From: Glutamicibacter mishrai
GTDB lineage: Bacteria > Actinomycetota > Actinomycetes > Actinomycetales > Micrococcaceae
NCBI RefSeq assembly: GCF_012221945.1
Contig: NZ_CP032549.1
Location: 2,790,001-2,854,000 of the forward strand
DNA: 64,000 nucleotides
Reading direction: 5' to 3'
The notes under the pieces are model-generated. The model worked only from the letters and a program-made list of their open reading frames with translations. It was not told where the DNA came from and made no database searches. This document shows, in pieces, positions 8,731 through 61,533 of the stretch (position 1 is the stretch's first letter; each line of letters opens with the position of its first letter). Made by a program: the position numbers and the translations under genes.

Positions 8731-8766
8731 TTGCTCACCAGCAATTAGCAGTGTGACTCACTGATT

Positions 8767-8806: not shown

Positions 8807-8831
8807 AGTTTTGAACCATTAGGAGAAAACC

Positions 8832-9266: not shown

Positions 9267-9294
9267 GGGCTTCTGAGCTTCACTCTGCCTGGAG

Positions 9295-9337
9295 CAACGC
9301 CCCGGATGGCACGCATTGCGTGCTAGCCGGGGCGTTG
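9295..9337 (+). terminator. Hairpin after rbfA
   Basis: Outer arms CAACGCCCCGG (9295-9305) and CCGGGGCGTTG (9327-9337) pair perfectly, and inner arms GCACGC (9309-9314) and GCGTGC (9318-9323) extend the stem. There is no T run after it. Probable transcription end of the rimP-rbfA unit. Confidence 0.6.
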
Positions 9338-9454
9338 TGCGTTGGCCTCGATTACCCTCACAGCGAAGCGCGAATCCCTGCCGAAGGCTGGTCGCCGGGC
9401 AGATGGTGGGATAGCGTGATCAGAAACCGACGGATCCGACCAAAGGTGCAGCAC

Positions 9455-9901
9455 ATGCCAGAATTCACCACAACACTGAGCGCAACCGGCGGAAACAACG
9501 TGGGGATCGTGGTTCCCGATGGCATCGTGCTCGGATTCGGCCGCGGCAAACGTGTCCCGGTCATCGTGTGCATTGACGGGGACTACACCTACCGGAACAC
9601 CATTTCATCTATGCACGGGCAGTTCCTCATTTCCTTCAACTCCGAAACACGCGCAGCTACGGGCAAGGGCGCGGGAGATGAAATCAGCGTGAAACTCGAA
9701 CTCGACGAAGAGCCGCGCACCGTGGAAATTCCCCAACCGCTGGCCGTGCTGCTTTCAGCTGAACCCGAGCTCCTGGAAGCCTGGAACCAGCTTTCCTACA
9801 GCAAGCAGCGAGGCCACGTAGATCCGATCGTGGCAGCCCGCGGCGAGGACACCAGGGCGCGCCGGGTCGAAAAAGTCATCAAGACGCTTCGCGGCAAATA
9901 G
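9455..9901 (+). CDS. YdeI/OmpD-associated family protein with DUF1905 domain
   Basis: 148 residues from ATG 9455; the open frame goes back to 9320 but the family begins near this Met. The first half is a DUF1905 beta-barrel-like domain (FTTTLSATGGNNVGIVVPD, then GKRVPVIVCIDG) and the second half is the YdeI/OmpD-associated C-terminal helical motif (LEAWNQLSYSKQRGHVDPIVAARGEDTRARRVEKVIKTL). The family is linked by name to bacteriocin protection and iron or stress responses, but the role is not known. It converges on the molybdoenzyme gene with 15 bases between. Confidence 0.8.
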   Translation: MPEFTTTLSATGGNNVGIVVPDGIVLGFGRGKRVPVIVCIDGDYTYRNTISSMHGQFLISFNSETRAATGKGAGDEISVKLELDEEPRTVEIPQPLAVLLSAEPELLEAWNQLSYSKQRGHVDPIVAARGEDTRARRVEKVIKTLRGK

Positions 9902-9916
9902 GCTGCAGGTCGACGC

Positions 9917-11476
9917 CTACTGCACCGTGAACTGCAGGCGCTGCCAGCCGCTGGCGCCATTGGGCACTGGGTTAGCTTTCTCGCGGGTCTGCAGCAGGCC
10001 CTGCGCATCGTAGGCGCGCACCGTGGCCGAATGTGCGCCGGGGGCAGCATCCTTCCATGCGAAGCGCCACTGCCGCCACGTATCCAAGGAGGCCTCGGCG
10101 GCAAGTTCGGCGTCTTCCCACGGTCCATCATCGATCTGCACCTGCACGCGGGAAATCCCGCGGGTCTGCGCCCACGCGGTTCCGCCCAACACAACCTCCC
10201 CGGCGGGAACCTTAGCGAACGGGCGAGGGGTATCGATCCGGGACGACATCTTGATGGGGCCTCGTTCGGACCAACCGCGAGTGGTCCAATAGGCAGCCTT
10301 GTCTTGGAACCGGGTGACTTCCAAATCGATCACCCATTTGGTTGCAGACACATAGCCGTACAGGCCCGGAACCACCATGCGAACCGGGAACCCATGCTCG
10401 AATGGCAGTGGCTCATCGTTCATGCCGATCGCCAGCAAGGCCATCCGGTCATCGCTCAGCACTTCCAGCGGGGTGGAAGCGCTGAAACCGTCATGGGAAG
10501 TGGAGAGCACCATATCGGCGCCGGCCTGCGGAATCGCGCGCTCCAGCAGGTGGCGCAGCGGGTAGCCAAGCCACTTGGCATTGCCTACCAGATCGCCGCC
10601 CACCGGATTCGATACGCAGGTCAGCGTCAGATGTGTTTCCACGAGCTCCTGGTCCAGCAGCTCGTCGAAGGTCATGGTGAATTCGTTTTCCACCATGCCG
10701 TGAACGCGCAAGGACCACTGCGCCGGGTCAACTTGCGGCACCGACAGCGCGGTGTCGATGCGGTAGAAATTCCGGTTCGGGGTGATGAATTGCGGCATGT
10801 TCGGGTCGTCAATCTGAACCCCCGCGGGCAGGGCCTTGGCCTTGGTCCGGGGCCTCGGCAATCGTAAGGCCTTGCGGGCAGCATCGGCCATGTTGCGCGA
10901 TGCGGCGAGCGATGTGGACACTCCGGTAGCTATGGCTGCGGCTGCCAGGGTCAAGGCCGAGCTGAGCAAGAAGGTTCTGCGGCTTGGACCGGATGCATCA
11001 GCATCCTGGCTCGGCCGTGGGGTCGTGGCTGCAATCAGTCGGCTGAGCCACTGAAGAATCCCGATGCCGGCCACCGCGCCGAGCACTGTAGGGGTAATAT
11101 CGAGCAGGCTGGTGGAGGCGCGAGCGGCCACGGCGCTGGACATCACCACAGCCAAGGCAATGATGGCGGTGCAGGCAAGGGCGAAGCTCCGCTTTGCCAG
11201 CAGGCCGATCAACGCGGAGAGGACCGTCGCGACGACGGCGATGGAAATGAACAGCGCCAGCTTGTCATTGGTGCCGAAGGTCGCGATGGCGAAGTCCTTG
11301 AGCCACGGGGGAGTCAAATCGATGATGGCCGAGCCCAAGGCGAAAAACGGTGACGAGGCGCTATTAAAAAATGCCGAAGCGAACTGGGCCACGGCGAACA
11401 TGGCTGCTGCCGAACAGAATCCAGCCACCGCGTAGAATACGAGAACTCTGTCTTTGCGTTTCGTTGAAATGTCCAC
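9917..11476 (-). CDS. Membrane-anchored molybdopterin-dependent oxidoreductase (sulfite oxidase family)
   Basis: About 519 residues. The N-terminal 150 residues carry four or so membrane segments (VLVFYAVAGFCSAAAMFAVA, then LALFISIAVVATVLSALIGL and others). A twin-Arg-like SRRTFLLSSALTLAAAA precedes a further hydrophobic helix. The catalytic domain follows (about 240-410) with the Mo-coordinating Cys in ETHLTLTCVSNPVGG, and then a C-terminal Mo-co dimerisation Ig-like domain (GTAWAQTRGISRVQVQIDDG). GTG 11476 is preferred because GAGGTG lies 6-7 bases before it; GTG 11482 is the longer option. It sits downstream of the sigK-rskA pair on the same strand. Substrate is not shown. Confidence 0.88.
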   Translation of the reverse strand: MDISTKRKDRVLVFYAVAGFCSAAAMFAVAQFASAFFNSASSPFFALGSAIIDLTPPWLKDFAIATFGTNDKLALFISIAVVATVLSALIGLLAKRSFALACTAIIALAVVMSSAVAARASTSLLDITPTVLGAVAGIGILQWLSRLIAATTPRPSQDADASGPSRRTFLLSSALTLAAAAIATGVSTSLAASRNMADAARKALRLPRPRTKAKALPAGVQIDDPNMPQFITPNRNFYRIDTALSVPQVDPAQWSLRVHGMVENEFTMTFDELLDQELVETHLTLTCVSNPVGGDLVGNAKWLGYPLRHLLERAIPQAGADMVLSTSHDGFSASTPLEVLSDDRMALLAIGMNDEPLPFEHGFPVRMVVPGLYGYVSATKWVIDLEVTRFQDKAAYWTTRGWSERGPIKMSSRIDTPRPFAKVPAGEVVLGGTAWAQTRGISRVQVQIDDGPWEDAELAAEASLDTWRQWRFAWKDAAPGAHSATVRAYDAQGLLQTREKANPVPNGASGWQRLQFTVQ

Positions 11477-46639: not shown

Positions 46640-48271
46640 TCACTGCCGTTGGGTTTCAGCGACTGCCAACGGCGTCGTGGATGATTCGCGCATATCGGTA
46701 GTACCACCAAAAGACTTAAGCGATAGTTCGTGACCGCCGGGGGAGAGGAAAGCCGTTGAGCTCAGTGTCGCCTGGCCATCTTCGGCAAAAATCTCAATCG
46801 AGGTGGTATCCACCAAGATGTCCAAGGAGAGCTGTCCGTTGTCCACTGGAAGCTTCTCGCTGCGAATCTCTCGGTAGGATTCAGGCATATTGCCGGCGGC
46901 TTTGTCGTTGTCTCGGTTCAAGAACAGTGTTTGGTCATTGAAGTTATAGCCAACAGTGACGGTGGCACCTTGAGCGTCCTTGAGCTGAACCTGGGTTTCT
47001 TCGGCCGGTGCACTTTGATCCTGGGACAGATCAACGTGGAGCCGATAGGCATCGGATTCGGCCTTGCCCAGTGAAGCCTCGTGATCCTTTGCCACAGCTC
47101 CGGGTTCGGCCACTACGGCTTCGCCTTCGAGTTCGTCCAGCGCATCAATGGGTTCTGAGAACAGCTGGGGATGTCCATCAACGTCACGCAACGAAAGCTG
47201 GCGCACCGTGGACATGGTTCCACCGGACCAGTCGCCGAGTGGCAAATCGCCTGCGTAGGCCCAGTTGTTCATCCAGCCCAGCGCATAACGATGCTTCGTA
47301 GGATCTTGCGCCTTGGGGTCATCCCATGTGACTGCAGCATAGAAGTCTGATCCTGCATCCAGCCAGCGTGGATCCTTTTCATCGGCGGTGAAACTCTTGC
47401 CGTCGAAGGAACCGCTCCAGTAGGTGTAGCCGGTGGTACGGCCCGAGCTTGCGCCGTTGGCGCTGATGCCCAGCACCCACGTGGTGCGTTCCGGATCGCC
47501 GTCCACTGTCATCTGGAAGAAGTCAGGGCATTCAACAACGCCCAGATCGGTGGTCTCAAAGCCTGATTGGTAGTCCCAGGATTTCAGGTCCTTGGAAGTG
47601 TAGAAACCGACCTTGTTTCCCTCGGCCAGCAGCATCAGCCATTGATTGCGTTCTTTGTCCCACACGACCTTCGGATCTCGCCAAGCCTCGACGCCGGGGT
47701 TATCCATGACTGGATTGCCGTCGTACGAGGTGAAGGAGTATCCGCCATCGGTTGAGTAGAACAGGGACTGGCGCTGTACGCCGTCAACCTGCTGAGTGAC
47801 CAAGGAGATGACCGCATTCTTGCCAAAGCCAGCGGTGTTTTCGGTGTCGACTACCGCACTGCCGGTCCAGATATCACCGAGCCCGTTTTTGTACTTCTCG
47901 ATGGCTACGCCTTCGTCTTTCCAGTGAACGAGGTCAGTGGATGTCGTGTGGTACCACTCGGTGCCGTTGCCGTCCGGGTAGTCAGCGTTGTAGAGGTAGT
48001 AGAAGTGCCATAGCCCGTCGAGGAAAAACGGGCGCTGCGGGTCGTTCATCCAATTTTGCCCTGGCGTCAGATGCGTGGCAGGGCGATATTCAGACCAGGC
48101 CTCAGGGCGCTGGAATTTTGTGTCTTCCTGATTGGGCTGGTCGCCGTCAGGGGACGGAGTTTCTGGCGAAGAACTGAGGGACTGCCATGACACCACGGTT
48201 CCGAGCACCAAGATGCAGAGTACTGCGATCGCTAAAAGCTTCTTGGATTTCTTTGGCTGTGGTTCTGTCAT
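46640..48271 (-). CDS. GH32 exo-fructanase / levanase (membrane-anchored or secreted)
   Basis: 543 residues from ATG 48271. One hydrophobic helix at about 11-32 (LLAIAVLCILVLGTVVSW) with no clear cleavage site, so likely a membrane anchor. Five-bladed GH32 domain: nucleophile Asp77 in GQNWMNDPQRPFFLDG, RDP in EAWRDPKVVWDKE near 205, and acid/base Glu in GVVECPDFFQMTV near 255. C-terminal beta-sandwich (about 400-540, ending in LSSTAFLSPGGHELSL). Hydrolyses levan, inulin or sucrose outside the cell. Divergent from the levansucrase gene. Confidence 0.93.
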   Translation of the reverse strand: MTEPQPKKSKKLLAIAVLCILVLGTVVSWQSLSSSPETPSPDGDQPNQEDTKFQRPEAWSEYRPATHLTPGQNWMNDPQRPFFLDGLWHFYYLYNADYPDGNGTEWYHTTSTDLVHWKDEGVAIEKYKNGLGDIWTGSAVVDTENTAGFGKNAVISLVTQQVDGVQRQSLFYSTDGGYSFTSYDGNPVMDNPGVEAWRDPKVVWDKERNQWLMLLAEGNKVGFYTSKDLKSWDYQSGFETTDLGVVECPDFFQMTVDGDPERTTWVLGISANGASSGRTTGYTYWSGSFDGKSFTADEKDPRWLDAGSDFYAAVTWDDPKAQDPTKHRYALGWMNNWAYAGDLPLGDWSGGTMSTVRQLSLRDVDGHPQLFSEPIDALDELEGEAVVAEPGAVAKDHEASLGKAESDAYRLHVDLSQDQSAPAEETQVQLKDAQGATVTVGYNFNDQTLFLNRDNDKAAGNMPESYREIRSEKLPVDNGQLSLDILVDTTSIEIFAEDGQATLSSTAFLSPGGHELSLKSFGGTTDMRESSTTPLAVAETQRQ

Positions 48272-48396
48272 CGGTCTTTCCAATAGTTGGGTTCGAAACG
48301 CCAGACTAAGAGGACGGCGCGGCTGCGACGTCGCAAAGATTTTGGGGGAGAGATCGTGCATCACTACGAGTGACCGATATCCACGCTAGCGAACAT

Positions 48397-48477: not shown

Positions 48478-48581
48478 TAGATTGACACAAGCTATGCGAA
48501 TCCTTAGATTCGACTGTGGAGAGAACGTGTATCACGGTCAGAGCGATTGTCCGATTCCATATCGAACAAAGGCAAACAATC

Positions 48582-50162
48582 GTGAACAAACAACGTACGA
48601 AGCGTGGCATCCTTACTGCCGCACTGAGCATCGGGGCACTTGGTGCTACCTTGATCTCGGGGCCAGCTGTAGCTGCCACCGACGCAGCACCTGGCTTCCC
48701 ACAGCCAACCGAGCACACTCAGAAGGCTTACAGCCCAACCGACAATTTCACCTCGCGTTGGACTCGTGCTGATGCAAAGCAGCTCAAGGCCATGTCTGAT
48801 CCAGATGCCGGTTCGCGTGAAAATTCCATGCCTACGGAATACACCATGCCGACCGTTTCTCAGGATTTCCCTGACATGTCCAACGAAAAGGTTTGGGTCT
48901 GGGATACCTGGCCACTGATCGACGAAAACGCTAACCAGTACAGCGTCAACGGTCAGGAAATCATCTTCTCGTTGGTTGCCGACCGCAAGTTGGGCTTCGA
49001 TGAGCGTCACCAGTACGCACGCATCGGCTACTTCTACCGCCCAGCAGGAATCCCTGCTGACGAACGTCCCGAAGATGGCGGCTGGACCTACGGCGGACAG
49101 GTCTTCGACGAAGGCGTGACCGGGAAGATCTTTGAAGATCAGTCTTTCACCCACCAGACCCAGTGGTCGGGCTCCGCACGCGTAAGCAAGAACGGTGAAA
49201 TTAAGCTCTTCTTCACCGACGTTGCTTTCTACCGCGACAAGGACGGCCAGGACGTCAAGCCTTATGACTCACGCATCGCATTGAGCGTTGGTCACGTCCA
49301 CTCGAACAAAAAGGGCGTGAAGCTGACCGGCTTCAACAAGGTCAAGGAATTGCTGCAGGCAGACGGTAAGAACTACCAGAATGCTGCGCAGAACTCCTAC
49401 TACAACTTCCGTGACCCATTCACCTTTGTAGACCCAGCGCACCCAGGCGAGACCTACATGGTCTTTGAAGGCAACTCGGCCATGGATCGCGACGATGCCA
49501 AGTGCACCGCTGAAGATCTTGGTTACCGCGAAGGCGAAACCAACGGTGAAACCGTTGAGCAAGTCAACAACTCCGGTGCAACCTACCAGATCGGTAACGT
49601 TGGACTGGCTCGTGCCAAGAACAAGGCACTGACTGAATGGGAATTCCTGCCACCAATCTTGTCGGCTAACTGCGTTACCGACCAGACTGAGCGTCCGCAG
49701 ATCTACATGCAGGATGGCAAGTACTACCTGTTCACCATTAGCCACCGTTCGACTTTTGCCACCGGCATTGACGGTCCAGAAGGCGTCTACGGATTTGTTG
49801 GTAACGGCATCCGCAGTGACTACCAGCCACTGAACCGTGGATCGGGTCTGGCACTTGGCAGCCCAACGAACCTGAACTTCGCAGCAGGTACCCCATTCGC
49901 ACCTGACTACAACCAGCACCCAGGTCAGTTCCAGGCATACTCGCACTACGTCATGCCTGGCGGTCTGGTTCAGTCCTTCATCGATACCATCGGAACCAAG
50001 GACAACTTCGTCCGCGGTGGAACGCTTGGCCCAACCGTCAAGCTGAACATCAAGGGTGACTCGGCAACCGTCGACTACAACTACGGCGATAACGGTCTTG
50101 GCGGATGGGCAGATATCCCAGCCAACCGCGAGCTGAAGAACAGCAAGGCAGTAGCCAAGTAA
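48582..50162 (+). CDS. GH68 levansucrase, secreted
   Basis: 526 residues from GTG 48582. Signal peptide with Ala-X-Ala cleavage (GILTAALSIGALGATLISG, then PAVAA near residue 38). Catalytic triad of GH68 is complete: nucleophile Asp108 (VWVWDTWPLIDE), stabiliser Asp278 (YYNFRDPFTFVDP) and acid/base Glu370 (TDQTERPQIYM). Transfers fructose from sucrose to build levan and releases glucose. Highest-quality codon pattern of the region suggests strong expression. Under the two LacI operators with the GH32 gene. Confidence 0.95.
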   Translation: MNKQRTKRGILTAALSIGALGATLISGPAVAATDAAPGFPQPTEHTQKAYSPTDNFTSRWTRADAKQLKAMSDPDAGSRENSMPTEYTMPTVSQDFPDMSNEKVWVWDTWPLIDENANQYSVNGQEIIFSLVADRKLGFDERHQYARIGYFYRPAGIPADERPEDGGWTYGGQVFDEGVTGKIFEDQSFTHQTQWSGSARVSKNGEIKLFFTDVAFYRDKDGQDVKPYDSRIALSVGHVHSNKKGVKLTGFNKVKELLQADGKNYQNAAQNSYYNFRDPFTFVDPAHPGETYMVFEGNSAMDRDDAKCTAEDLGYREGETNGETVEQVNNSGATYQIGNVGLARAKNKALTEWEFLPPILSANCVTDQTERPQIYMQDGKYYLFTISHRSTFATGIDGPEGVYGFVGNGIRSDYQPLNRGSGLALGSPTNLNFAAGTPFAPDYNQHPGQFQAYSHYVMPGGLVQSFIDTIGTKDNFVRGGTLGPTVKLNIKGDSATVDYNYGDNGLGGWADIPANRELKNSKAVAK

Positions 50163-50368: not shown

Positions 50369-52738
50369 TTAGCCGTGCCTGCCTCGGCGGCGAAGCGCTA
50401 CCGTGATGGCGCCGAGCACGATCAGTCCCAGTGCAACACCACCGGCGAGCATCAGCCCTGAACTCGCGCCGGTGTCGGCAAGCTTGTCATCGTTGCGCTT
50501 GTCTTCCTCGTCGGAATCCTGCTCCTGATCGGTTGAAGGCGACGTGGTTGCACTAGTTTCTGGTGGAGTGCTTTCATCCGTTGGATCGTCGGTTGGGTCA
50601 TCCGTTGGATCGTTAGAAGGCTGTTCAGTTGGTTCCGCGGTTGAATCGTCTGTCGGCTGCGCCGAGGGCTCTTCAGGTGCGGCAAACAGGCCGAACCAGG
50701 TAGACACAGTTCCGGAATCATCTGCTAATTGTGCCAATGGCTTGGTGATTGCTTCATCCGCGGATGACTCTTCCTTCGCAGCTCCCTTGAGGTAGTAGAT
50801 ACCCGAGGTCAATTTCTCAACACGTGCGTCATTAATCACCAAGCGGTTTCCTGTAACGGCAAAGTCGACGGCCCTGAGTGTGGCAGTCTGCCCCTCGGCG
50901 GCCTGATATTCCAGGTCGAAGCTGAAGCTCTCTTCAGAGACCTCAGGGAAATCTTCGGGAATGTCAAAGCTGAGTTCAGAGTGGCCGGCTTCTGCCAGTC
51001 GGACTCCCAATCGGCTGTCGATGATGTCCGATTGCAACGACAAGACATTGGCACCGGACAGAAGTGCGGAAATTACACGTCCGTCTGATCCTTTGACCGA
51101 TACCAACAACTGGTTGTGGTCCGAGATGCTGTCGGTGAAGGCCTCGTCAGCGGTGATCGTTAGCTTGCCGTTCTCAACTGTTCCCTCGATCGTCTGAGGT
51201 TTCGCGCCAGGGGAAGTGCGGTAAGTGACTGCGACGTCGCCGTCTTCTACACCTGACTTTGTAGTAAAGACGTAGGTTCCGTCTTCGACGGATGAAGATT
51301 CGCTGTCGAATGCCAAATACTCTTCGCCCGGGGCTACTTGCTCACCAGATTCGGGTTCCTCAGCCTCAGGAACGTCCGTTGGTTCCTCGGTTGGTTCCGC
51401 GGTCGGTTCTTCGGTTGGCTCGGAGGTTGGTTCAGTAGTTTCGGTTGGTTCCGCGGTCGGTTCGTTCGTGGGTTCCGCGGTCGGTTCTTCGGTTGGCTCG
51501 GAGGTTGGTTCAGTAGTTTCGGTTGGTTCCGCGGTCGGTTCGTTCGTGGGTTCCGCGGTCGGTTCGTCCGTGGGTTCCGAAGTTGGCTCAGACGTTGGTT
51601 CCTCGGTTGGTTCGGAGGTCGGCTCCGAAGTTGGTTCGGTAGTTTCGGTTGGTTCCGCGGTCGGTTCTTCCGTGGGTTCCGTGGTCGGTTCGTCCGTGGG
51701 TTCCGAAGTTGGCTCAGACGTTGGTTCCTCGGTTGGTTCGGAGGTCGGCTCCGAAGTTGGTTCGGTAGTTTCGGTTGGTTCCGCGGTCGGTTCTTCCGTG
51801 GGTTCCGAAGTAGGTTCTTCGGTCGGTTCCGAAGTTGGCTCCTCAGTTGGAGTTGGAGTTGGAGTTGGAGTAGGTTCTGGTGCCTCACCATAGAGGCCCA
51901 TATACACTGTGGCCGATTCACTCTCGCCTGGCCCGACGAAGTAAACCTGGTAGCTGTCCCCTGCAGTTAACTGCGAAATTACCTCATCTGAGACAGTTAA
52001 TTTCCCGTTCGAGATGGAGATCTCTGACAACTCTAGGTCGACGAACCCGCCTTCGGGAGCGTCAGGCGAGTCGCTGTAGTAGAAAATGGATACTTTTGCT
52101 GATTCGAGCCAGGAAACTCCTGCAGGCAAATCGAACGTCCATTGGCTTGATCCGACAGGAAGAAGTGGGGTGCCGGAACGTTTCTCTACTTCACTGGTTT
52201 CCAGTGTGACGGCGCTCGACGACGCATAATAGGTGCCACCCCAATGCGTCAGGTCTGGGCCGACTTCCTCACCGGTTGAGACACTAAAAGAAATCTGTCT
52301 GCTGTCCTTCGTCCAACTTGAGTATGCGTCAGCGTGGTCACGCGGCCCGTTGTAAACGACTTTGCCATCCTCATAGCGGGCTTCTAATGTGCTCCCCGTA
52401 TTTGGAACGGTAGAAGAGCTGAGCCAAACTTTTTCGCCATTGTCAGCGACACCGTAGGTATCGTTCAGCACGACGATGCCATTTGGTGGGTCGCTCAACT
52501 CGTAATTGACAGTAAATGCTTCCTCTCCCTTTGGCGCAACGTTGAGCGCCTTGTCTTCATAGATCGGAGGAGCGTCGGCTGCCGGTTTAGCGAGGCTAAG
52601 CGGGGCATGCACAGGAGTTTCATTGGGGAGGCCCATTGCGAAGCTGCTGGTCACCCCACCCAAGGCAAGTGAGCCTGCGGCAATAACGGCAAGTGGAAGG
52701 CGTGCGGTTCGCGCATGCTTTTTTCGGGTCTGGTTCAC
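50369..52738 (-). CDS. Cell-wall anchored surface protein with Pro-Thr-Glu repeats and LAxTG signal
   Basis: 789 residues from GTG 52738 (AGAGG upstream). Signal peptide (RLPLAVIAAGSLALGGVTSS, then FAMG), an N-terminal region of beta-rich character (about 50-290), a long repeat region of EPT-S/A/D-E-P-T units (about 292-460), a second beta-rich region (about 465-680), a further PT-rich stretch, and a C-terminal sorting signal: LADTG, hydrophobic helix (LMLAGGVALGLIVLGAITVA), then RRRGRHG. LAxTG is the motif of class E sortases in high-GC actinobacteria. Role probably adhesion or wall structure; the two globular parts are similar in style to each other. Confidence 0.88.
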   Translation of the reverse strand: MNQTRKKHARTARLPLAVIAAGSLALGGVTSSFAMGLPNETPVHAPLSLAKPAADAPPIYEDKALNVAPKGEEAFTVNYELSDPPNGIVVLNDTYGVADNGEKVWLSSSTVPNTGSTLEARYEDGKVVYNGPRDHADAYSSWTKDSRQISFSVSTGEEVGPDLTHWGGTYYASSSAVTLETSEVEKRSGTPLLPVGSSQWTFDLPAGVSWLESAKVSIFYYSDSPDAPEGGFVDLELSEISISNGKLTVSDEVISQLTAGDSYQVYFVGPGESESATVYMGLYGEAPEPTPTPTPTPTEEPTSEPTEEPTSEPTEEPTAEPTETTEPTSEPTSEPTEEPTSEPTSEPTDEPTTEPTEEPTAEPTETTEPTSEPTSEPTEEPTSEPTSEPTDEPTAEPTNEPTAEPTETTEPTSEPTEEPTAEPTNEPTAEPTETTEPTSEPTEEPTAEPTEEPTDVPEAEEPESGEQVAPGEEYLAFDSESSSVEDGTYVFTTKSGVEDGDVAVTYRTSPGAKPQTIEGTVENGKLTITADEAFTDSISDHNQLLVSVKGSDGRVISALLSGANVLSLQSDIIDSRLGVRLAEAGHSELSFDIPEDFPEVSEESFSFDLEYQAAEGQTATLRAVDFAVTGNRLVINDARVEKLTSGIYYLKGAAKEESSADEAITKPLAQLADDSGTVSTWFGLFAAPEEPSAQPTDDSTAEPTEQPSNDPTDDPTDDPTDESTPPETSATTSPSTDQEQDSDEEDKRNDDKLADTGASSGLMLAGGVALGLIVLGAITVALRRRGRHG
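51368..51885. repeat. Coding repeat tract of the LAxTG protein
   Basis: Basic 18-base units (GGTTCCGCGGTCGGTTCN type on the plus strand) encode Glu-Pro-Thr-rich hexapeptides on the minus strand. On top of this there are two higher-order tandem duplications of nearly identical DNA: a 78-base period (copies beginning near 51411 and 51489) and a 126-base period (copies near 51571 and 51697). The near identity implies recent expansion. This explains the long open frames on the opposite strand. Confidence 0.85.
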
Positions 52739-53094: not shown

Positions 53095-53868
53095 TTAGTG
53101 CATGTGGCTGCCGCCGTTGATATCAAGCGTGACACCGGTCAGGTAGGAGGCCGTCTCGCTGGATAGGAACGTGATGACCGAGGAGACCTCTTCGGTGGTT
53201 GCGGTGCGGCCAATGGGGATGTCGCGAGCGATGGCGGCTTCGGTCTCAGGCGTTGAGCCCACGCGAATGTTCGTGTCGACAGCACCTGGCGTGACCGCGT
53301 TGACGGTGACGCCACAGTCCCCGAGCTCGCGGGCCAGGGCCTTGGTGAATCCGAGGACCGCGGCCTTGGCTGCCGAGTAAGGGACCTTGCCGAAAACACC
53401 TCCGCCGCGCTGCGCGGATACTGAAGACATGTTGACGATTCGTCCCCATCCGTTGGCGATCATCTCTGGAAGGAACGCTTTGGTGACGAGATAGGTTCCG
53501 GTTGCGTTGACTGCGAAAATCTTGTCCCACAACTCACGCGTGGTTTCCAGGAAGGGGACTGGTGAGGTGATGCCTGCGATGTTGGCAAGCGCACCGACAG
53601 CTGGAAGTTTGCCGGCTGCCACTTCAGCTTGAACTGCTTCCTGAGCGGCGGTAACCGAGTTTTCGTCGGCGACGTCAACGCTGTACCCGAAAGCGGGAAC
53701 TTCATGCGCCGCGCCAATTTCTTGAGCTACTTCAGAAGCCTTGGCGCCATCGAGGTCGAGGATGACTACGGCCCAGCCTTCTTTGGCAAAGCGGTTGGCA
53801 GTAGCCATGCCGATGCCTTGTGGGGATGCTGCGCCGGTGATAACTGCGGTGCGGGAAACGTTGCCCAT
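53095..53868 (-). CDS. Short-chain dehydrogenase/reductase (SDR)
   Basis: 257 residues. Rossmann motif AVITGAASPQGIGMATANRF near residue 8, ALANIAGITSPVPF (N-A-G type), catalytic Ser and Tyr-X-X-X-Lys in VNMSSVSAQRGG and PYSAAKAAVLGFTKALAREL near 150, and a tail LTGVTLDINGGSHMH. Classical SDR, NAD(P)-dependent; substrate unknown, probably a polyol or sugar derivative handled by the split transketolase next door. AAGGAG precedes ATG 53868. Divergent from the MHS transporter with the operator cluster between. Confidence 0.92.
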   Translation of the reverse strand: MGNVSRTAVITGAASPQGIGMATANRFAKEGWAVVILDLDGAKASEVAQEIGAAHEVPAFGYSVDVADENSVTAAQEAVQAEVAAGKLPAVGALANIAGITSPVPFLETTRELWDKIFAVNATGTYLVTKAFLPEMIANGWGRIVNMSSVSAQRGGGVFGKVPYSAAKAAVLGFTKALARELGDCGVTVNAVTPGAVDTNIRVGSTPETEAAIARDIPIGRTATTEEVSSVITFLSSETASYLTGVTLDINGGSHMH

Positions 53869-53953
53869 GATTGGACTCCTTTGTCATCTGGACGGCAAGC
53901 GTTTCAGTGCGACGCCGTCGTCTCGTCTTGTGATGGAAGACACTTTATCCATG

Positions 53954-54056
53954 TTGACTGTTAACAGTCAACTGTTAAAAATAAGTTTGTGTTAACTGTT
54001 GACAATGGCAAGTGGCGTAGAACACACTGGTGGACGTATCCTGTTGACTGTTGACA
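53954..54056. promoter_or_regulatory. Cluster of three GntR (FadR-type) operator candidates
   Basis: O1 TTGACTGTTAACAGTCAA (53954-53971) is a perfect 18-base palindrome. O2 GTTAACTGTTGACA (53991-54004) and O3 TGTTGACTGTTGACA (54042-54056) share its halves (GTTGAC/GTTAAC with CTGTT). They fill the divergent region between the SDR and the MHS transporter. A related sequence precedes the GntR gene itself. The match across two promoters of one gene group supports common control. Confidence 0.75.
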
Positions 54057-54099
54057 ATGACCGTCCAATGAAGGGCTGTCATCCTGAAAGGTTAGTGAC

Positions 54100-55440
54100 A
54101 TGACGAACCAAGGACTTGCGATGCGTGGACATGTCCACGGCACCAAGGATGCCAAACGCGTCGCTATCGGTTCCAGCGTTGGAGCCGTCATTGAGACTTA
54201 TGATTTCATCGGCTTCGGCACCGCCGCAGCGCTGTATTTCGGCACTGCCTTCTTCCCGAGCGACAATGCTGTCACCGGAACGCTGGCCGCATTCGCAACA
54301 CTCGGTGTTGGCTTCGCCGCTCGTCCATTGGGCGGCATCCTCGGCGGCCACTTGGGCGACAAAGTCGGCCGAAAGCCGGTACTAGTTGCATCGCTGGTGC
54401 TGATGGGTCTATCCACCTTTGCCATCGGCTTGCTGCCGACATTCTCCCAAGTAGGTATTCTGGCACCGACGCTCCTGGTGCTCATTCGCATCATCCAGGG
54501 TTTGGCTTTCGGCGCTGAGTGGGGTGGAGCGATCCTCATGAGCTACGAACACGCGCCATGGAAGAAGAAGGGCAAGTACACCGGCATCGTCCAGGCAGGT
54601 TTCCCGGTCGGATTGCTGTTGGCCAATATAGTCTTCCTCTACAGCGTGAATCTCGACGGCGACTGGGCTTGGCGCGTACCATTCCTGGCTAGCTTGCTGC
54701 TGGTATTCATTGGCTTGCTGATTCGCTCCAAGGTGCCGGAATCTCCGGTATTCGAGGAAGTGAAGAGCTCCGGTGAAATCTCGCGTTCGCCAATTATCGA
54801 GGTGATCCGCGATGACTGGCGCAACATCTTGCGTGGCATCGGACTGCGTGTGGCGGAAACCGCCGGCTATGCAGTGTCCATTACCTACATGATTTCCTAC
54901 CTGCACGAAAGCGGGTTGGCTGATAAGACCCAGACCCTCGTTGCGCTATGCATTGCGGCAGCGATCGGCATCTTCGCCACGATGTTCTGGGGTTCGCTCA
55001 CCGACAAGATCGGCCGCCGCCCGCTGTACCTGATCTCCACCGGATTCGCAGTGCTCTTCGGAATTCCAATGTTCCTGTTGGTCAACACAGGACTGTTCTT
55101 CCTGGTTATCGCCACGGTCGTCATTTCCTACGCAGTCTGCCAGAACTCACTGGCCGGAGTTCAGGGTGCTTGGTTCCCGGAACTGTTCCAAGCCAAGACC
55201 CGCTCGTCAGGCGCTTCGCTGGCCTACCAGATTTCGGCCATGGTCTCCGGATTCACTCCGTTCATCACCACCTTGCTGTTCGTAGCCTTCGGCTGGGTCG
55301 GCCCAGCACTGCTCTTCAGCCTGTACGGCGCCATTGGCCTCTGGGCAGCGCTGGTCACCCGTGAAACCTGGGGCAAGAACGAACGTCGCTTGGCCGACGA
55401 GGCCGAACAAGCCACCCCCGCACACAAAATCGAAGCCTAA
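54100..55440 (+). CDS. MFS transporter, metabolite:H+ symporter (MHS) type
   Basis: 446 residues, twelve membrane helices. MHS features: AIGSSVGAVIETYDFIGFGT near residue 24, GGHLGDKVGRKPVLVASLVL (loop 2-3 motif) near 87, and GLAFGAEWGGAILMSYEHAP near 130. These importers take up alpha-ketoglutarate, shikimate, citrate, betaine or other polar metabolites. AAAGG precedes ATG 54100. First gene of a probable MHS-transketolase operon; the substrate is probably the carbon source of the module. Confidence 0.92.
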   Translation: MTNQGLAMRGHVHGTKDAKRVAIGSSVGAVIETYDFIGFGTAAALYFGTAFFPSDNAVTGTLAAFATLGVGFAARPLGGILGGHLGDKVGRKPVLVASLVLMGLSTFAIGLLPTFSQVGILAPTLLVLIRIIQGLAFGAEWGGAILMSYEHAPWKKKGKYTGIVQAGFPVGLLLANIVFLYSVNLDGDWAWRVPFLASLLLVFIGLLIRSKVPESPVFEEVKSSGEISRSPIIEVIRDDWRNILRGIGLRVAETAGYAVSITYMISYLHESGLADKTQTLVALCIAAAIGIFATMFWGSLTDKIGRRPLYLISTGFAVLFGIPMFLLVNTGLFFLVIATVVISYAVCQNSLAGVQGAWFPELFQAKTRSSGASLAYQISAMVSGFTPFITTLLFVAFGWVGPALLFSLYGAIGLWAALVTRETWGKNERRLADEAEQATPAHKIEA

Positions 55441-55469
55441 CCGGCCCCACAATCATTGAAGGATCAGAC

Positions 55470-56357
55470 ATGAACGCATCATCTGTTGCCACTGCTAATC
55501 CAACAGCGGTGAGCACCGAGCGCCGCCAGAAGGTGGAGGAATTCGCCTACCGAGCACGACACCATGCACTGAATATGGGCGAGGTCCAGGGCCAGGGCTA
55601 TGTTGGCCAGGCACTGGGTTCCGCCGACATGTTCGCCGCTGTATATGCCGACCAGCTGAACTACCGCGCAGAAGATCCGGACTGGGACCAGCGCGATCGT
55701 TTCCTGCTATCGACTGGCCACTACGCCATCGGCCACTACGCCGCATTGGCCCAGGCCGGGATCGTGCCGATCGAAGAGCTTGAGACCTATGGCTCGGATG
55801 ACTCCCGTCTTCCAATGTCCGGCATGTCCACCTACACTCCGGGAATGGAGATTTCCGGCGGTTCACTGGGGCACGGCCTGCCGATCGCCATCGGCACCGC
55901 GTTGGGACTGCGACACCAGGGGTCTTCGGCCCGCGTCATCAACTTCATGTCGGACGGCGAACTGGACGAAGGATCAACCTGGGAAGCGGTGATGGGCGCC
56001 CACCACCATGGCTTGGGGAACCTGACCGTCCTCGTGGACATCAACGCGCTGCAGGCTGATGGAAAAACCGACACCGTCTTGCGCACTGAACCGGTTGCCG
56101 ACAAGTGGGCAGCCAGCGGATGGTTCGTACAGCGCGTCGACGGCAATGATGCCGGCGCGTTGCTGGCCGCGTTCGACGCGGTGGCAGCTGAAGCAAAGAA
56201 CGAAGCCCGCCCATCGGTAATCCTCTGCGATACCCGTATCGGGCGCGGGGTGCCGCTATTGGAACAGCGCGAAAAAGCGCACTTCATGCGGATTGAAGAA
56301 AACGAATGGCAGATCTGCCGTGAACAACTCACTGCGGGCTACGAAGGAGATAAGTAA
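55470..56357 (+). CDS. Transketolase, N-terminal (TPP-binding) subunit
   Basis: 295 residues, corresponding to the first third of a full transketolase. Contains ARHHALNMGEVQGQGYVGQA, RDRFLLSTGHYAIGHYAALA (His-rich loop), SGGSLGHGLPIAIGTALGLR, and the diphosphate-Mg site with SDGELDEGSTWEAVMGAHHH, ending in VDINALQADG (canonical Gly-Asp-Gly is Ser-Asp-Gly). Ends with a one-base overlap (TAATG) with its partner. Split transketolases of this kind serve special catabolic paths such as apulose-type or sulfosugar routes, not the pentose cycle itself. Confidence 0.93.
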   Translation: MNASSVATANPTAVSTERRQKVEEFAYRARHHALNMGEVQGQGYVGQALGSADMFAAVYADQLNYRAEDPDWDQRDRFLLSTGHYAIGHYAALAQAGIVPIEELETYGSDDSRLPMSGMSTYTPGMEISGGSLGHGLPIAIGTALGLRHQGSSARVINFMSDGELDEGSTWEAVMGAHHHGLGNLTVLVDINALQADGKTDTVLRTEPVADKWAASGWFVQRVDGNDAGALLAAFDAVAAEAKNEARPSVILCDTRIGRGVPLLEQREKAHFMRIEENEWQICREQLTAGYEGDK

Positions 56358-57349
56358 TGACCAGCACCCCGGCAAAGACCCGACTCAAGACCTCGGCCAT
56401 GATCGCCTCCTTCGCAGATCCGGGCCAGAAGACGGCCCCGGCTCCATTTGGCCATGCACTGGTCAGGGCCGCGGAGGAAAACCCAGCCATCGTCGGCCTG
56501 ACGGCGGACCTCGGCAAGTACACGGATATGCACATCTTCGCCAAGGCCTACCCGGAACGCTTCTTCCAGATGGGCATGGCGGAGCAGCTGCTGATCGGCG
56601 CGGCAACCGGCATGGCGCAGACCGGCCTGGTGCCCTTCGCATCGACCTACTCGGTTTTCGCTGCTCGCCGCGCCTACGACTTCCTGTGCCTGGATGCCGC
56701 CGAGCCGAACTTGAACGTCAACATCGTCGGCGGCCTGCCGGGCTTGACCACCGGGTACGGCCCAAGCCACCAGGCAACCGAAGACATGGCCATCTTCCGT
56801 GGCATGCCCAACCTGACCATTGTTGATCCGTGCGACTCGGTGGACATCGAACAGGCAGTGCCACAGCTGGCGGCCAGCGAGGGCCCGACCTACCTGCGCT
56901 TGCTGCGTGGCAATGTTCCCACGGTGCTTGATGAATATGATTACACCTTTGAACTGGGCAAGGCGAAGGTGCTGCGCCCAGGCAATGACGTCGTCATGAT
57001 TTCCAGCGGTCTGATGACCATGCGTGCCTTGAGCGCAGCCAAGGAACTGGAAAAGCACAACGTTGATGTCTCGGTAGTTCACACCCCAACCATCAAGCCA
57101 TTTGATTCGGAAACGGTGCTGCGTGAAATCAACACCGATCGTCTGGCACTGACGCTGGAAAACCACACGGTGGTCGGCGGACTCTTTGAAACAGTGGCTT
57201 CTGCCATGGTTCAGGCCGGAATCGGCAAGCAGGTTCTGCCCGTTGGCCTTCCAGACGAGTTCCTGCATGCCGGCGCGCTGCCAACCTTGCATGATCGTTA
57301 CGGGTTGTCGGTGGACCGCATTGTTCAGAAGGTGCTCGCTGCACTGTAG
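56357..57349 (+). CDS. Transketolase, C-terminal subunit
   Basis: 330 residues, carrying the pyrimidine-binding and C-terminal domains of transketolase: VGLTADLGKYTDMHIFAKAY, FFQMGMAEQLLIGAATGMAQ (with the catalytic Glu in M-A-E-Q), YGPSHQATEDMAIFRGMPNL, and LTLENHTVVGGLFETVASAM near 260. Forms the active enzyme with the upstream subunit. Followed by a hairpin and then the GntR gene. Confidence 0.93.
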   Translation: MTSTPAKTRLKTSAMIASFADPGQKTAPAPFGHALVRAAEENPAIVGLTADLGKYTDMHIFAKAYPERFFQMGMAEQLLIGAATGMAQTGLVPFASTYSVFAARRAYDFLCLDAAEPNLNVNIVGGLPGLTTGYGPSHQATEDMAIFRGMPNLTIVDPCDSVDIEQAVPQLAASEGPTYLRLLRGNVPTVLDEYDYTFELGKAKVLRPGNDVVMISSGLMTMRALSAAKELEKHNVDVSVVHTPTIKPFDSETVLREINTDRLALTLENHTVVGGLFETVASAMVQAGIGKQVLPVGLPDEFLHAGALPTLHDRYGLSVDRIVQKVLAAL

Positions 57350-57355
57350 TAAATT

Positions 57356-57384
57356 CCGGGAACCGTGTGATCCGCGGTTCCCGG
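57356..57384 (+). terminator. Hairpin after the transketolase genes
   Basis: CCGGGAACCG (57356-57365) pairs perfectly with CGGTTCCCGG (57375-57384) around 9 bases, 7 bases after the stop. There is no T run. It may separate the transport and transketolase message from that of the regulator. Confidence 0.55.
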
Positions 57385-57407
57385 CGACTACTATAGAACC
57401 AAACGTG

Positions 57408-57425
57408 CAACTGTCGACTGTTGAC
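57408..57425. promoter_or_regulatory. GntR operator candidate, autoregulatory
   Basis: CAACTGTCGACTGTTGAC shares the GACTGTTGAC half with O3 and half of O1 in the SDR/MHS promoter region. It lies 22 bases before the GntR start codon, so the regulator probably controls itself. Confidence 0.6.
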
Positions 57426-57446
57426 TCATAGAAGAGGGTGGATTCC

Positions 57447-58112
57447 ATGGCCGCAGAACCAATGGCCTTGTTGGGGCTTGAAAAAACGAGCCTGAGAGAA
57501 CAAACCCTCACTGCCCTGCGTCAGGCCATCACCACCGGACAGCTCGAACCAGGAAAGCATCTGGTGGAAACCGAGCTGTCCGAAATGCTCAATATCAGCC
57601 GCGGCACGTTGCGCGAAGCATTGCGCCAGCTCCAGCAGGAAGGCCTGGTTGCACCCGGCGCGCGCGGTCGGCTCTCGGTGCGCAGCTTGGACGTGAAAGA
57701 GATCAGGGACATCTTTGCGGTGCGCGCCGCGCTGGAGACACTGGCTGCGCAGACGCTATGCCGACTTGATGACCGAAGCGAAGCCGTCGCCCAGCTGCGT
57801 TCGGCTCTGAAAGTCATGGATAACGAAGTCAAGCAAAGCCTCGAACGTGGTATCGAAGCGGATCTCGACTTCCACCGGGTGCTTTGCCGGCTCACGGGCA
57901 ACGAGTCGTTGCTCCACGCATGGGAACAGCTTGAAGGAAGCATTCGCATGTCCATCATGTGGGCCGGCAAAGAGCGCGGAATCAAGAATATGAATGTCTC
58001 GCGCCACAAAGAAATCGTTGACGCTATCGACTCGGCTGATGTCGGGTTGGCTGCTGCCGTGATCAGTGCGCACATGGACACCGCTGCAGAAGTTCTCGTC
58101 TCGTCGACGTAG
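57447..58112 (+). CDS. GntR family regulator, FadR subfamily
   Basis: 221 residues from ATG 57447, with GAGGG 8 bases before; GTG 57438 is in frame but lacks spacing. Winged helix at the N-terminus (SLREQTLTALRQAITTGQLE; LSEMLNISRGTLREALRQLQ), then an all-helical FCD ligand domain (about 85-215: VRAALETLAAQTLCRLDDRS; DLDFHRVLCRLTGNESLLHA; MSRHKEIVDAI-type metal-binding His). Probably represses the SDR, MHS and transketolase genes until the substrate or its product is present. Confidence 0.93.
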   Translation: MAAEPMALLGLEKTSLREQTLTALRQAITTGQLEPGKHLVETELSEMLNISRGTLREALRQLQQEGLVAPGARGRLSVRSLDVKEIRDIFAVRAALETLAAQTLCRLDDRSEAVAQLRSALKVMDNEVKQSLERGIEADLDFHRVLCRLTGNESLLHAWEQLEGSIRMSIMWAGKERGIKNMNVSRHKEIVDAIDSADVGLAAAVISAHMDTAAEVLVSST

Positions 58113-58634: not shown

Positions 58635-59681
58635 TTAGGCCATGGTTGCGGTGTCAATCACGAAGCGGTAGCGGACATCCGACTTCAGGACGCGCTCGTA
58701 AGCCTCGTTGATCTGGTCTGCAGAAATGACTTCAATTTCTGCACCGATGCCGTGCTCGCCACAGAAGTCCAGCATTTCCTGGGTCTCCTTGATGCCACCA
58801 ATGTTGGAACCAGCGAAGGAGCGGCGTCCGCCGATCAGGGCGAAAGCGTTAACTGGAAGTGGCTCGGCTGGTGCACCAACGTTGACCAAGGTGCCGTCAA
58901 CGCGAAGAAGCTGCAGGAACGCACTGATGTTGATCGATGCACTGACGGTGTTGATGATCAGGTCGAACGTCTTGTGCAGATCCTTGAAGGTAGCCTCGTC
59001 GCTGGTGGCGCGGTAGTCGCTGGCACCAAGCTTCAGACCGTCTTCCTTCTTCTTCAGCGACTGCGACAAGACAGTTACCTCGGCACCCATGGCACTGGCA
59101 ATCTTGACCGCCATGTGGCCCAGACCGCCAAGACCGATGACTGCGACCTTCTTTCCCGGGCCTGCATTCCAGTGGTGCAGTGGGGAGTAGGTGGTAATGC
59201 CTGCGCACAGTAGGGGAGCGGCAACATCAAGTTCGATGCTGTCGGGAATGCTCAGCACGAACTTCTCGGTGACGACGACATTGGTGGTGTATCCACCCTG
59301 GGTGACGGTTCCGTCGCGATCAATAGCGCCATAGGTACCCACCATGCCTTCAACACAGAACTGTTCGAGGTCATCGAGGCAGTATTCGCACTTGCCACAA
59401 GAATTAACCATGCAGCCGACGCCGACTCGGTCGCCGACCTTGTGCTTGGTGACTTCGGAGCCAACTTCTGCCACGATGCCGGCAATTTCGTGACCTGGAG
59501 CCAGCGGGTAAGACTGTGGGCCCCAATCGCCACGAACCGTGTGGATGTCTGAGTGGCAGATGCCAGCGTACTTGATGTCGATCCGGACATCGTGTGGTCC
59601 GACTTCGCGTCGTTCGATCTGGATGGGAGCCAGCGGCTCGGTTGCTGACGGGGCTGCGTATGCGTTGGCCATAGTAGTCAT
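58635..59681 (-). CDS. Zinc-dependent NAD(P) alcohol dehydrogenase (YahK/CAD type)
   Basis: 348 residues. Catalytic zinc site: Cys and His in [20 protein letters not shown] and [20 protein letters not shown]; structural zinc Cys cluster in [19 protein letters not shown] near residue 105. Rossmann [20 protein letters not shown] near 180. Resembles the broad aldehyde reductases YahK/YjgB and cinnamyl alcohol dehydrogenases. AAGGAA precedes ATG 59681. Separate unit from its neighbours. Confidence 0.95.
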
Positions 59682-59927: not shown

Positions 59928-61172
59928 CTATACGCGGAGTGCTGATTCTTGGCGGACGGAACGCTTCGCAAGAACTGAGAGTGTGATCACTGGGATGAGT
60001 GTCAGAGCTGCAACGCATGCTCCGAGTAAAACTGGGCCAGTTGTGCCCAGCGGGGTTTCCAAGGACTTGCCGCCTGCCCACGAAGCAACCACCGTGCCTG
60101 CATTGAATCCGGCGACAGTTAATGATGAGGCCAACGTTGGAGCTTTATTGCCGTAGTTGATAGCCAGAGAAGCGAGGATCGGGTTGGCACCGAGGCCAAA
60201 GTATCCGAGCAAGGCAATCAAAGCGATCATTGGCAGTTTCACCTCTGAGAGCAGACAAATTGCCAGCAAGATCAGGGTTGAGGTGGCCGGGGCAATGACA
60301 GTGAGCAAATGTGGATGTGCATCGCCGAGTCTTCCGCCAACTAGGGAACCAATCAAGGAACCGATACCAAAGCCGATCAGTACTAGAGGTATAACCGTCT
60401 CACTGAACCCTGTCCCGTCGATGAGTAACGGAGAAATATAGGAGTAGGTCGCCAAAACACCACCGGTGGTAGTGGCGCAAGCGGCAAGGGTGAGACATAA
60501 CCGCGTTGAGCGAAGCCCAGCAAGTTCACCGCGTATCGATACATTGGAGTGCTGCGACAAATTATTCGGAACATGGCGAGCAATGAGCAAAGCAGAGATC
60601 ACCGCGAGCACTGCAAGGCTCCAGAACGATCCCCGCCATCCAAAGTATTGGGAGGCGAAGGCTCCTAACGGCACACCTAAGACTGTGGCAAGCATGCCTC
60701 CTGCATTAATAATTCCCAGCGCACGTGATGCCATGCCGGCTCCCGCGCTCTTGGCAGCTACGACCCCGGCAATGGCCCAAAAGGCACCGGTTGCTAATGC
60801 TGTGACGAATCGAGCAATCATTAATAAGGTGAAGTCGGAGCCCAGAGCAACCACCACGTGGCCGACGGCAAAGACGGCCAATGCCAAGATCAATGTCATT
60901 CGTTGAGGTAGGCGCAGCGTCAGCAGGGCCATGAGTGGCGCCCCGATCACCATCCCTGTTGCGAAAACGGTGATCAGCAGGCCGGCTTTCGCGACACTAA
61001 TGTCAAGTTCGGCAGCCAGTTGGGTCAGGATGCCGGCCACGATGAACTCAGTGGTGAGCATCGTGAAAGTGCCTACTGCAAGCACATAAACAACTAAAGG
61101 GATAGGGCTAATGCCACTACGCGTTGTTGCGGTGAGAGGCCCCGCTTTCACGCGTGGTTCGTCAACGTTCAT
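59928..61172 (-). CDS. MFS transporter (DHA1, AraJ/CmlR-like)
   Basis: About 414 residues from ATG 61172, with twelve membrane helices. VLAVGTFTMLTTEFIVAGIL in helix 1 is typical of AraJ, YdhP and chloramphenicol-efflux type exporters; LLITVFATGMVIGAPLMALL and RFVTALATGAFWAIAGVVAA (helix 4) follow. Probable drug or arabinose-like exporter; substrate not known. No strong ribosome site; the frame extends to 61205. Confidence 0.88.
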   Translation of the reverse strand: MNVDEPRVKAGPLTATTRSGISPIPLVVYVLAVGTFTMLTTEFIVAGILTQLAAELDISVAKAGLLITVFATGMVIGAPLMALLTLRLPQRMTLILALAVFAVGHVVVALGSDFTLLMIARFVTALATGAFWAIAGVVAAKSAGAGMASRALGIINAGGMLATVLGVPLGAFASQYFGWRGSFWSLAVLAVISALLIARHVPNNLSQHSNVSIRGELAGLRSTRLCLTLAACATTTGGVLATYSYISPLLIDGTGFSETVIPLVLIGFGIGSLIGSLVGGRLGDAHPHLLTVIAPATSTLILLAICLLSEVKLPMIALIALLGYFGLGANPILASLAINYGNKAPTLASSLTVAGFNAGTVVASWAGGKSLETPLGTTGPVLLGACVAALTLIPVITLSVLAKRSVRQESALRV

Positions 61173-61533
61173 TAACGTCCGTTCTATTAAGTAGGAATCC
61201 TTCAATATCTATTAGACCCGGAGAATCAAGGCGGAGGAAGAGTATGTCCATACCGCTACTGGCTGTACCTCTTTAAAACGTCATTTTAGGATTCCACCTG
61301 GATCCTGAACCGGGCTGGCTGACCGACGGTATTCCGTGGGCAAGACGCAGGATTTTGAAAACTTCGCGCAATATCGACAGCCGGCGTCGCCGATCTATAA
61401 GGGCCAGGACGGCGATTTTTGGGATTTTCCGCAACGTAATTTGAAGGGACAAATATTGAATGACGAGCCGAGTACTTGAAAGGGTTGTTCGAGCCCTTGG
61501 GGTAAAAAATCGCATTCGTCAACGGAGGTTCAG
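61173..61533. other. Intergenic region, 361 bp
   Basis: Between the MFS gene and the small secreted protein gene. Slightly AT-rich around 61400-61520. It must contain the promoter of the MFS gene and that of the secreted protein. No gene recognised. Confidence 0.4.

Follow-up and report, generated by a model that had tools for sequence, protein, structure and literature searches.

The 64,000-nucleotide stretch of DNA considered here, hereafter the window, is from Glutamicibacter mishrai, a member of the Micrococcaceae (NCBI RefSeq assembly GCF_012221945.1, contig NZ_CP032549.1, positions 2,790,001 to 2,854,000 of the forward strand), and it contains, at 53095-58112, a five-gene module centered on a split, i.e., two-subunit transketolase. 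Leftmost, on the minus strand, is a short-chain dehydrogenase/reductase (SDR) of 257 aa (53095-53868; Pfam adh_short_C2, 8e-57), which is 75.9% identical to its counterpart in the Arthrobacter MN05-02 module and 41-47% identical to the SDRs of the compared proteobacterial modules. The remaining genes are found on the plus strand. These are an MHS-family transporter (metabolite:H+ symporter; 446 aa; 54100-55440), with 340.6 bits against TIGR00883, a cut-off of 443.45 not being reached, and 302.5 bits, also sub-cut-off, against the NCBIfam shikimate transporter model; the transketolase N-terminal subunit, which binds thiamine diphosphate (ThDP; 295 aa; 55470-56357; Transketolase_N, 4.3e-40); the transketolase C-terminal subunit, consisting of pyrimidine and C domains (330 aa; 56357-57349; Transket_pyr, 8.2e-33, and Transketolase_C, 1.8e-25); and a GntR/FCD, that is, FadR-type regulator possessing both GntR and FCD domains (224 aa; 57438-58112). 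The N- and C-subunit reading frames share one base, at the end of the former and the beginning of the latter. All five open reading frames (ORFs) are in the places that a preliminary description of this DNA had given them, with Pfam and NCBIfam backing each of the gene classes that it had named. Elsewhere in the genome a 767-aa frame at 176683 separately and strongly matches transketolase, so the split pair is an extra transketolase, and its service as the housekeeping enzyme can be set aside.

Between and before these genes are repeats from which a motif, GTYRACTGTTRAC, was built, i.e., using the window's own copies, and then searched for across the 3,570,647-base genome, with the reversed pattern as control. 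Five matches were found genome-wide, four of them in the SDR-transporter intergenic region and the fifth ahead of gntR, while the reversed control had none over those same 3,570,647 bases. The first site, at 53953-53972, consists of two overlapping, opposite-strand copies forming an inverted repeat. It is followed by plus-strand sites at 53991-54003 and 54043-54055, and then by that upstream of gntR, at 57413-57425, also on the plus strand. A relaxed version of the motif, GTYRACNGTTRAC, occurs one or more times in 62 of the 80 actinobacterial loci described below, and not at all in the seven of these in which an LtnD-like enzyme (LtnD being L-threonate dehydrogenase) stands in for the SDR. I infer that the GntR protein binds this shared operator-like motif, and that it would by these means govern both of the module's promoters from a common operator.

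Two collections of related loci were considered. The first consists of the best 80 of at least 551 confirmed relatives, as chosen by transketolase similarity, all 80 of which are actinobacterial by title (Arthrobacter, Paenarthrobacter, Mycolicibacterium, Rhodococcus, Saccharopolyspora, Streptomyces, and other actinobacteria), with MHS transporters recognized at 60% or greater identity and SDRs at 48% or greater. The second is from plasmid records, in which 189 matches at E≤1e-60 are mostly from Pantoea, Rhizobium, and other Proteobacteria; 27 of these, hand-picked for diversity, were examined, i.e., 26 proteobacterial and one from Arthrobacter. ORFs in both were called by simple rules, some listings dropping overlapping ORFs based on length and third-position GC. 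Of 197 Micrococcaceae genomes, 47 have an N-subunit match at E≤1e-40, the best match being of at least 54% identity in 42 and of only 38-43% in five; for the window organism's own genus, the listing has three of 12.

Among the 80 actinobacterial loci, MHS transporters are seen in 74, SDRs in 71, LtnD-like genes in eight, TIM-barrel proteins in 53, dihydroxyacetone kinase (DAK)-type kinases in 33, and RpiB in 35, with the commonest order being RpiB-DAK-SDR-TIM leftward and MHS, N subunit, C subunit, and GntR rightward. The 26 proteobacterial loci have the SDR in 25, tripartite ATP-independent periplasmic (TRAP) transporters in 20, major facilitator superfamily (MFS) transporters in six, LtnD-like genes in seven (six of them alongside the SDR), TIM-barrel proteins in eight, and DAK in four. 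Because core genes thus recur in other genera as well as in Proteobacteria, and because the motif is confined to the module, the module is, so far as sequence can indicate, more than an accidental adjacency of genes. The recurring core set along with the operator-like motif also lend support to the earlier suggestion of a single regulated unit of uptake, oxidation, and cleavage. That this gene set is undescribed agrees with the searchable literature as well, as no paper was found which describes it, within searches that were of largely open-access material and in part of only the first 20 entries of longer lists of results, such that a description outside of that reach may exist.

The minimal form of the module is that of the window plus two further genomes of its genus (L149 and L150). 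The absence of kinase, isomerase, or aldolase, also claimed in the preliminary description, holds for the window module, though not for the many relatives which carry TIM-barrel, DAK-type kinase, and RpiB genes. The TIM-barrel proteins fall into three groups, with 23-28% between-group identity wherever BLAST gave an alignment, while the fused DAKs form two groups, at 36-39% identity; because of these splits into distant groups, both functions appear to have been acquired on more than one occasion. When scanned against family models, TIM-barrel proteins match IolE or epimerases weakly or match nothing, and a predicted structure has a pLDDT of 96.2. The possibility that the window strain retains these genes elsewhere was considered and rejected. 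That is, its genome has no match to PF02733, a search which does match three of 14 genomes, nor to the DAK of locus L060; its best RpiB match is 30%; and its TIM-barrel matches are weak, i.e., 36% over 81 residues and 28% over 134.

Transketolases are taught as sugar-phosphate enzymes, and a number of their residues contact the sugar phosphate or the donor, the human enzyme (TKT) serving here for numbering. In alignment with human TKT, H37 is replaced by Tyr and H110 by Ser (Tyr44 and Ser117 of the N subunit), K244 by a hydrophobic residue, S345 by Tyr and H416 by Leu (Tyr55 and Leu127 of the C subunit), and D424 by Tyr (Tyr134) along with a one-residue deletion. The R318 position is lost in most members and is Arg in two of the 80 loci. 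R474, as Arg184 of the C subunit, is the only contact kept throughout among those listed (H37, H110, R318, S345, H416, D424, and R474). Tyr44, Ser117, Tyr55, Leu127, Tyr134, and Arg184 are invariant over all 80 actinobacterial loci and are shared by the 18 members of A1 and A2 that were aligned. Kept in all 80 loci too are the ThDP-binding or catalytic residues H77, E366, H258, and D155 (human numbering), and the split transketolase retains catalytic Glu76, His84, and His271. My reading is that the split transketolase would no longer bind a sugar phosphate in the usual manner, with a pocket that seems narrowed by Tyr and Leu and with an Arg184 that may hold a carboxylate. Direct use of a non-phosphorylated substrate, which had been proposed previously, is made likelier by this loss of most sugar-phosphate contacts.

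In a 62-taxon tree, containing 27 of the 80 actinobacterial loci, hand-picked to include all eight that are of LtnD type, the module clade is split with a support of 100 and a branch of 0.85 from E. coli AptAB, the transketolase of D-apiose catabolism, along with five other pairs. The phylogenetic comparison which had been called for thus places the module pair outside of the apulose transketolases, as represented by one AptAB pair. It is possible, if doubtful, that the module pair constitutes a new transketolase branch which has lost sugar-phosphate recognition and which cleaves unphosphorylated 2-hydroxy-3-oxo acids to a 2-oxo acid plus a two-carbon unit. Two other split transketolases were encountered. 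A second Micrococcaceae group (L143-L146), 38-41% identical to the window's N subunit, keeps H37, H110, and R318. A third, at 8605-10985 on the minus strand of L147, is nearest to the module clade on the tree, is found in a different neighborhood, and has Tyr at H37, Ile at H110, and Gln at S345.

The shared residues also bear on an unlikely explanation, in which apiitol, apiose, or some other neutral branched sugar would be the substrate. There an SDR or TIM-barrel isomerase would generate apulose, which the split transketolase would cleave without prior phosphorylation, passing two carbons to glyceraldehyde 3-phosphate and leaving dihydroxyacetone for a DAK-type kinase, i.e., the apulose pathway with its kinase step placed last. 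A Tyr-Gly-Pro-X-His motif, with Asp424 lost, is indeed common to E. coli AptB and the module family; TIM-barrel and DAK genes, if of different subfamilies, recur beside the transketolase pair; sugar ATP-binding cassette (ABC) transporters adjoin some rhizobial modules; and two putative oxidoreductases of the E. coli apiose cluster, annotated as SDRs, are hypothesized in PMC13001218 to replace the isomerase. AptA, however, retains the equivalents of H37 and H110, which in the module are Tyr and Ser, the principal transporters are of acid types, dihydroxyacetone would be stranded in the window strain given the lack of a DAK match in its genome, and the replacement of SDRs by LtnD-like enzymes is left unaccounted for.

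As to those transporters, four types occupy the same slot: MHS, MFS, TRAP, and GntP. None was identified in the usual slot in L102 and L130. The MFS types have the D-galactonate model as nearest, at a sub-cut-off 249.8-345.9 of 395 bits. In the Azospirillum/Bradyrhizobium type (L046/L055), TRAP binding proteins match PDB entry 4oan much more strongly than other chains, at E values of 2e-121 and 1e-123 and with no further chain reaching E≤1e-60 for L055, and those of the type seen in a Comamonadaceae module (L042) are nearest to 4p47, 7bbr, 4pdd, 4pdh, and 4p9k/4pak; the predicted structure of a further TRAP-type protein, from L083, has a low pLDDT of 32.2. I take 4oan to have been modelled with 2-acetolactate, and 4pdd, 4pdh, 4p9k, and 4pak presumably are erythronate or pantoate complexes. 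With ligands in part so presumed, the TRAP relatives suggest an acid that is C4-sized rather than C5-C6. Binding by TRAP proteins of 2-acetolactate and of pantoate/D-erythronate is described in PMC5812351, a review, where these ligands stand apart from individual PDB entries. Some rhizobial loci possess, in addition, a lactonase-like amidohydrolase, which fits with an acid substrate.

A short hydroxy acid therefore looks a likelier substrate than a polyol or ketose, given acid-type transporters, TRAP proteins that resemble acid binders, and an LtnD-like enzyme replacing the SDR in several lineages. The polyol or plain ketose of the preliminary description, for which the scheme would be SDR oxidation of, e.g., a tetritol or hexitol to a ketose that is used directly by the transketolase, consequently loses ground, and a polyol is no longer the first choice. 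It is now quite improbable, despite the 33 of 80 actinobacterial loci in which DAK and RpiB neighbor the module and despite an Aestuarium locus which combines triose-phosphate isomerase (TPI), DAK, and an RpiB near to the model for D-erythrulose-4-phosphate isomerase (DerI; 233.3 of 240 bits), a set resembling the erythrulose phosphate steps of tetritol use. Standing against it are an acid-type transporter wherever the usual slot is filled, the replacement of the SDR by LtnD-like enzymes in some loci, and a window genome that is without a DAK match and with an RpiB match of 30% only.

Regarding that replacement, seven of the 80 actinobacterial loci possess an LtnD-like gene without an SDR at the 48% identity threshold, one possesses both, and two possess neither (L102 along with L093, the latter at a contig edge). 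In the seven, the LtnD-like gene is directly upstream of the transporter, and its products have the L-threonate dehydrogenase model as best, at 188.8-207 of 350 bits. The K. aerogenes locus also is LtnD-like without SDR. L-threonate dehydrogenase indeed is the best NCBIfam model for all 12 LtnD-like proteins scanned, with tartronate-semialdehyde reductase models matched as well, at lower scores. Placed on the transketolase tree, dehydrogenase type requires seven Fitch changes over 48 clear-cut leaves, eight of them LtnD-type, versus five to eight changes (mean 7.5) with labels shuffled over those leaves. That count excludes eight leaves of mixed or uncertain type (L102, L142, L148, L112, and four from Proteobacteria), treats L140 as SDR, and comes from a tree in which swaps are over-represented due to the inclusion of all eight LtnD-type loci among the 27 hand-picked actinobacterial ones. 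L142 has an LtnD-like gene plus an SDR at 36% only, and L148 an SDR. Four other beta-hydroxyacid dehydrogenases are encoded by the window genome, none of them in the window, which are near full-length on the L-threonate dehydrogenase model at 115.4-177.2 bits (cut-off 350).

The interpretation favored here, at a probability of roughly 0.4, is that the module is a minimal form of a widespread route for a short hydroxy acid, consisting of import, oxidation, and direct transketolase cleavage. The substrate would be a tetronate-like 2,3-dihydroxy acid, possibly branched at C2, which the MHS symporter would import and whose C3 hydroxyl would be oxidized by the SDR, or elsewhere by the LtnD-like enzyme, to yield a 2-hydroxy-3-oxo acid. 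ThDP of the two-subunit transketolase would then attack the C3 ketone of this unphosphorylated acid, breaking the C2-C3 bond, a step which has as its basis the altered active site together with intact ThDP machinery. Cleavage would leave a 2-oxo acid, i.e., glyoxylate if the substrate is unbranched and pyruvate or hydroxypyruvate if it is branched, with the two-carbon unit passing to an acceptor, perhaps glyceraldehyde 3-phosphate or another sugar phosphate, or instead a small aldehyde. In fuller modules the TIM-barrel enzyme, DAK-type kinase, and RpiB/TPI would probably allow a side product, either a tetrulose or dihydroxyacetone, to enter central metabolism. Having no DAK match, the window strain would have to feed housekeeping enzymes.

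Two further explanations retain an acid as substrate. In the first, as unlikely as that involving apulose, the imported compound already is a keto sugar acid, e.g., 5-ketogluconate or 4-ketopentonate, and the transketolase acts first, yielding tartrate or tartronate semialdehyde that the SDR or LtnD-like enzyme then reduces. The lower-scoring matches of LtnD-like proteins to tartronate-semialdehyde reductase models would be expected of such a route, a D-2-hydroxyacid dehydrogenase is present within the Azospirillum operon, and a mutant Gluconobacter transketolase yields tartaric semialdehyde, with 5-ketogluconate (5-KGA) remaining, according to PMC12016104. The C4 size suggested by the TRAP relatives, rather than C5-C6, is a poor match, as is the seemingly narrowed pocket. 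In the second, which is more improbable than any of the others, the enzyme would be an acyl rather than a ketol transferase, splitting an acetolactate-like oxidized acid into pyruvate and a ThDP-bound acetyl unit. The His that in ordinary transketolases touches the donor's C1 hydroxyl is, after all, Ser in 80 of 80 loci, and the closest solved protein for one TRAP type is 4oan. The 2-acetolactate of 4oan is itself presumed, however, the module is without a known acetyl acceptor, and DAK and RpiB go unaccounted for.

Returning to the proposed route of import, C3 oxidation, and direct cleavage, its weakest links are the oxidation at C3, which is assumed, the identity of the acceptor, and the role of TIM-barrel, DAK, and RpiB proteins, and a number of observations weigh against it. 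With a sugar-phosphate acceptor the loss of sugar-phosphate contacts would be hard to account for, and the DAK-RpiB pair of 33 of the 80 loci suggests a C4 ketose or else dihydroxyacetone, being superfluous to the scheme. The SDR of the window has generic FabG models as its nearest in NCBIfam, and all 12 of the LtnD-like proteins are under their family cut-off (188.8-310.8 of 350 bits). The LtnD-like enzyme, furthermore, may perform another step, since it co-occurs with the SDR in six of 26 proteobacterial loci and in L140, and since the C subunit of L131, a locus scored as LtnD-only, is directly followed by a 37% SDR-family gene. Known LtnD and DenD enzymes convert tetronates to 2-oxo-tetronate, thereby acting at C2 rather than C3, according to PMC10580937 and PMC12540250. 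Sugar ABC transporters, as adjoin some rhizobial modules, would suit a sugar, and the 80-locus sample is biased towards the window's sequence.

If true, then this would be a kinase-free C4 sugar acid route in bacteria of at least two phyla, a new means of using plant or soil hydroxy acids, and a possible source of biocatalysts for unphosphorylated substrates.

Other genes of the window can be noted. Following the module, on the minus strand at 58635-59681, is a zinc alcohol dehydrogenase with the aldehyde reductase Ahr as its nearest model (306.9 of 470 bits), and by eye a resembling ORF is downstream of the module in the near-identical genome L149. Beyond that, also on the minus strand (59928-61205), is an MFS efflux-type protein that is nearest to the Cmx/CmrA chloramphenicol family model, at a sub-cut-off 335.3 of 400 bits. 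To the module's left, at 50369-52738 (minus strand), is an ORF with long PT/E-P-T repeats (PF04886) and, by eye, an LADTG-like C-terminal sorting signal, the product of which probably is a wall-anchored surface protein. Further left a GH68 levansucrase (48516-50162, plus strand; Pfam 8.3e-142) adjoins a divergent ORF (46640-48364, minus strand) that by eye is GH32 levanase/invertase-like, the two perhaps forming a pair for levan synthesis and use.

In terms of known systems, the module appears to be a variant, apparently unstudied, among transketolase-based catabolic modules. AptA/AptB of E. coli SE15 (ECSF_RS02710/RS02715), which function in the use of D-apiose, likewise form a transketolase of two subunits, encoded in a cluster dedicated to sugar catabolism. 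That cluster, however, holds an FGGY kinase, an ABC transporter, and a sugar-binding regulator, whereas no kinase, including an FGGY apulose kinase, was found among nine window genes scanned. A plain apulose-pathway membership is rejected on account of this kinase absence from the window module along with the clade, separate from that of the one AptAB pair, and the active site. The sulfoquinovose pathway's SqwGH also is a split transketolase, one whose substrate is an unphosphorylated ketose with an acid group. Tetritol pathways, i.e., for D-threitol and erythritol, employ a DAK-type kinase and RpiB. Both adjoin the module in 33 of the 80 actinobacterial loci; the window genome has, respectively, no match and a 30% match only. 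Those pathways are not known to require a special transketolase.

A further comparison is with the DUF1537 tetronate pathways, one enzyme of which, OtnI, possesses a TIM-barrel fold, as do proteins in some of the module loci. These pathways (LtnD or DenD, OtnI, OtnK, and OtnC) also combine a transporter with a choice of dehydrogenase, as described in PMC10580937 and PMC12540250. The window module differs in having the transketolase pair instead of OtnK and OtnC, neither of which is found among the nine window genes scanned, OtnC families not having been searched for genome-wide. PF07005, the DUF1537 kinase family, has a single match in the genome, about 1.3 Mb from the module. That match is a 767-aa ORF (L159, 9410-11713; G000:C1, about 1527400-1529700) which by eye has ABC transporter and DeoR-like regulator genes next to it and lacks an LtnD-like neighbor in that stretch.

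Lastly, with canonical transketolases, i.e., human TKT and the split enzyme of Carboxydothermus (6yaj/6yak), the module pair has in common its ThDP fold and catalytic residues, differing from human TKT in the replacement of most residues contacting sugar phosphate or donor. The cleavage of 2-hydroxy-3-oxo acids which is proposed for it would be akin to the acetolactate synthase reaction in reverse.

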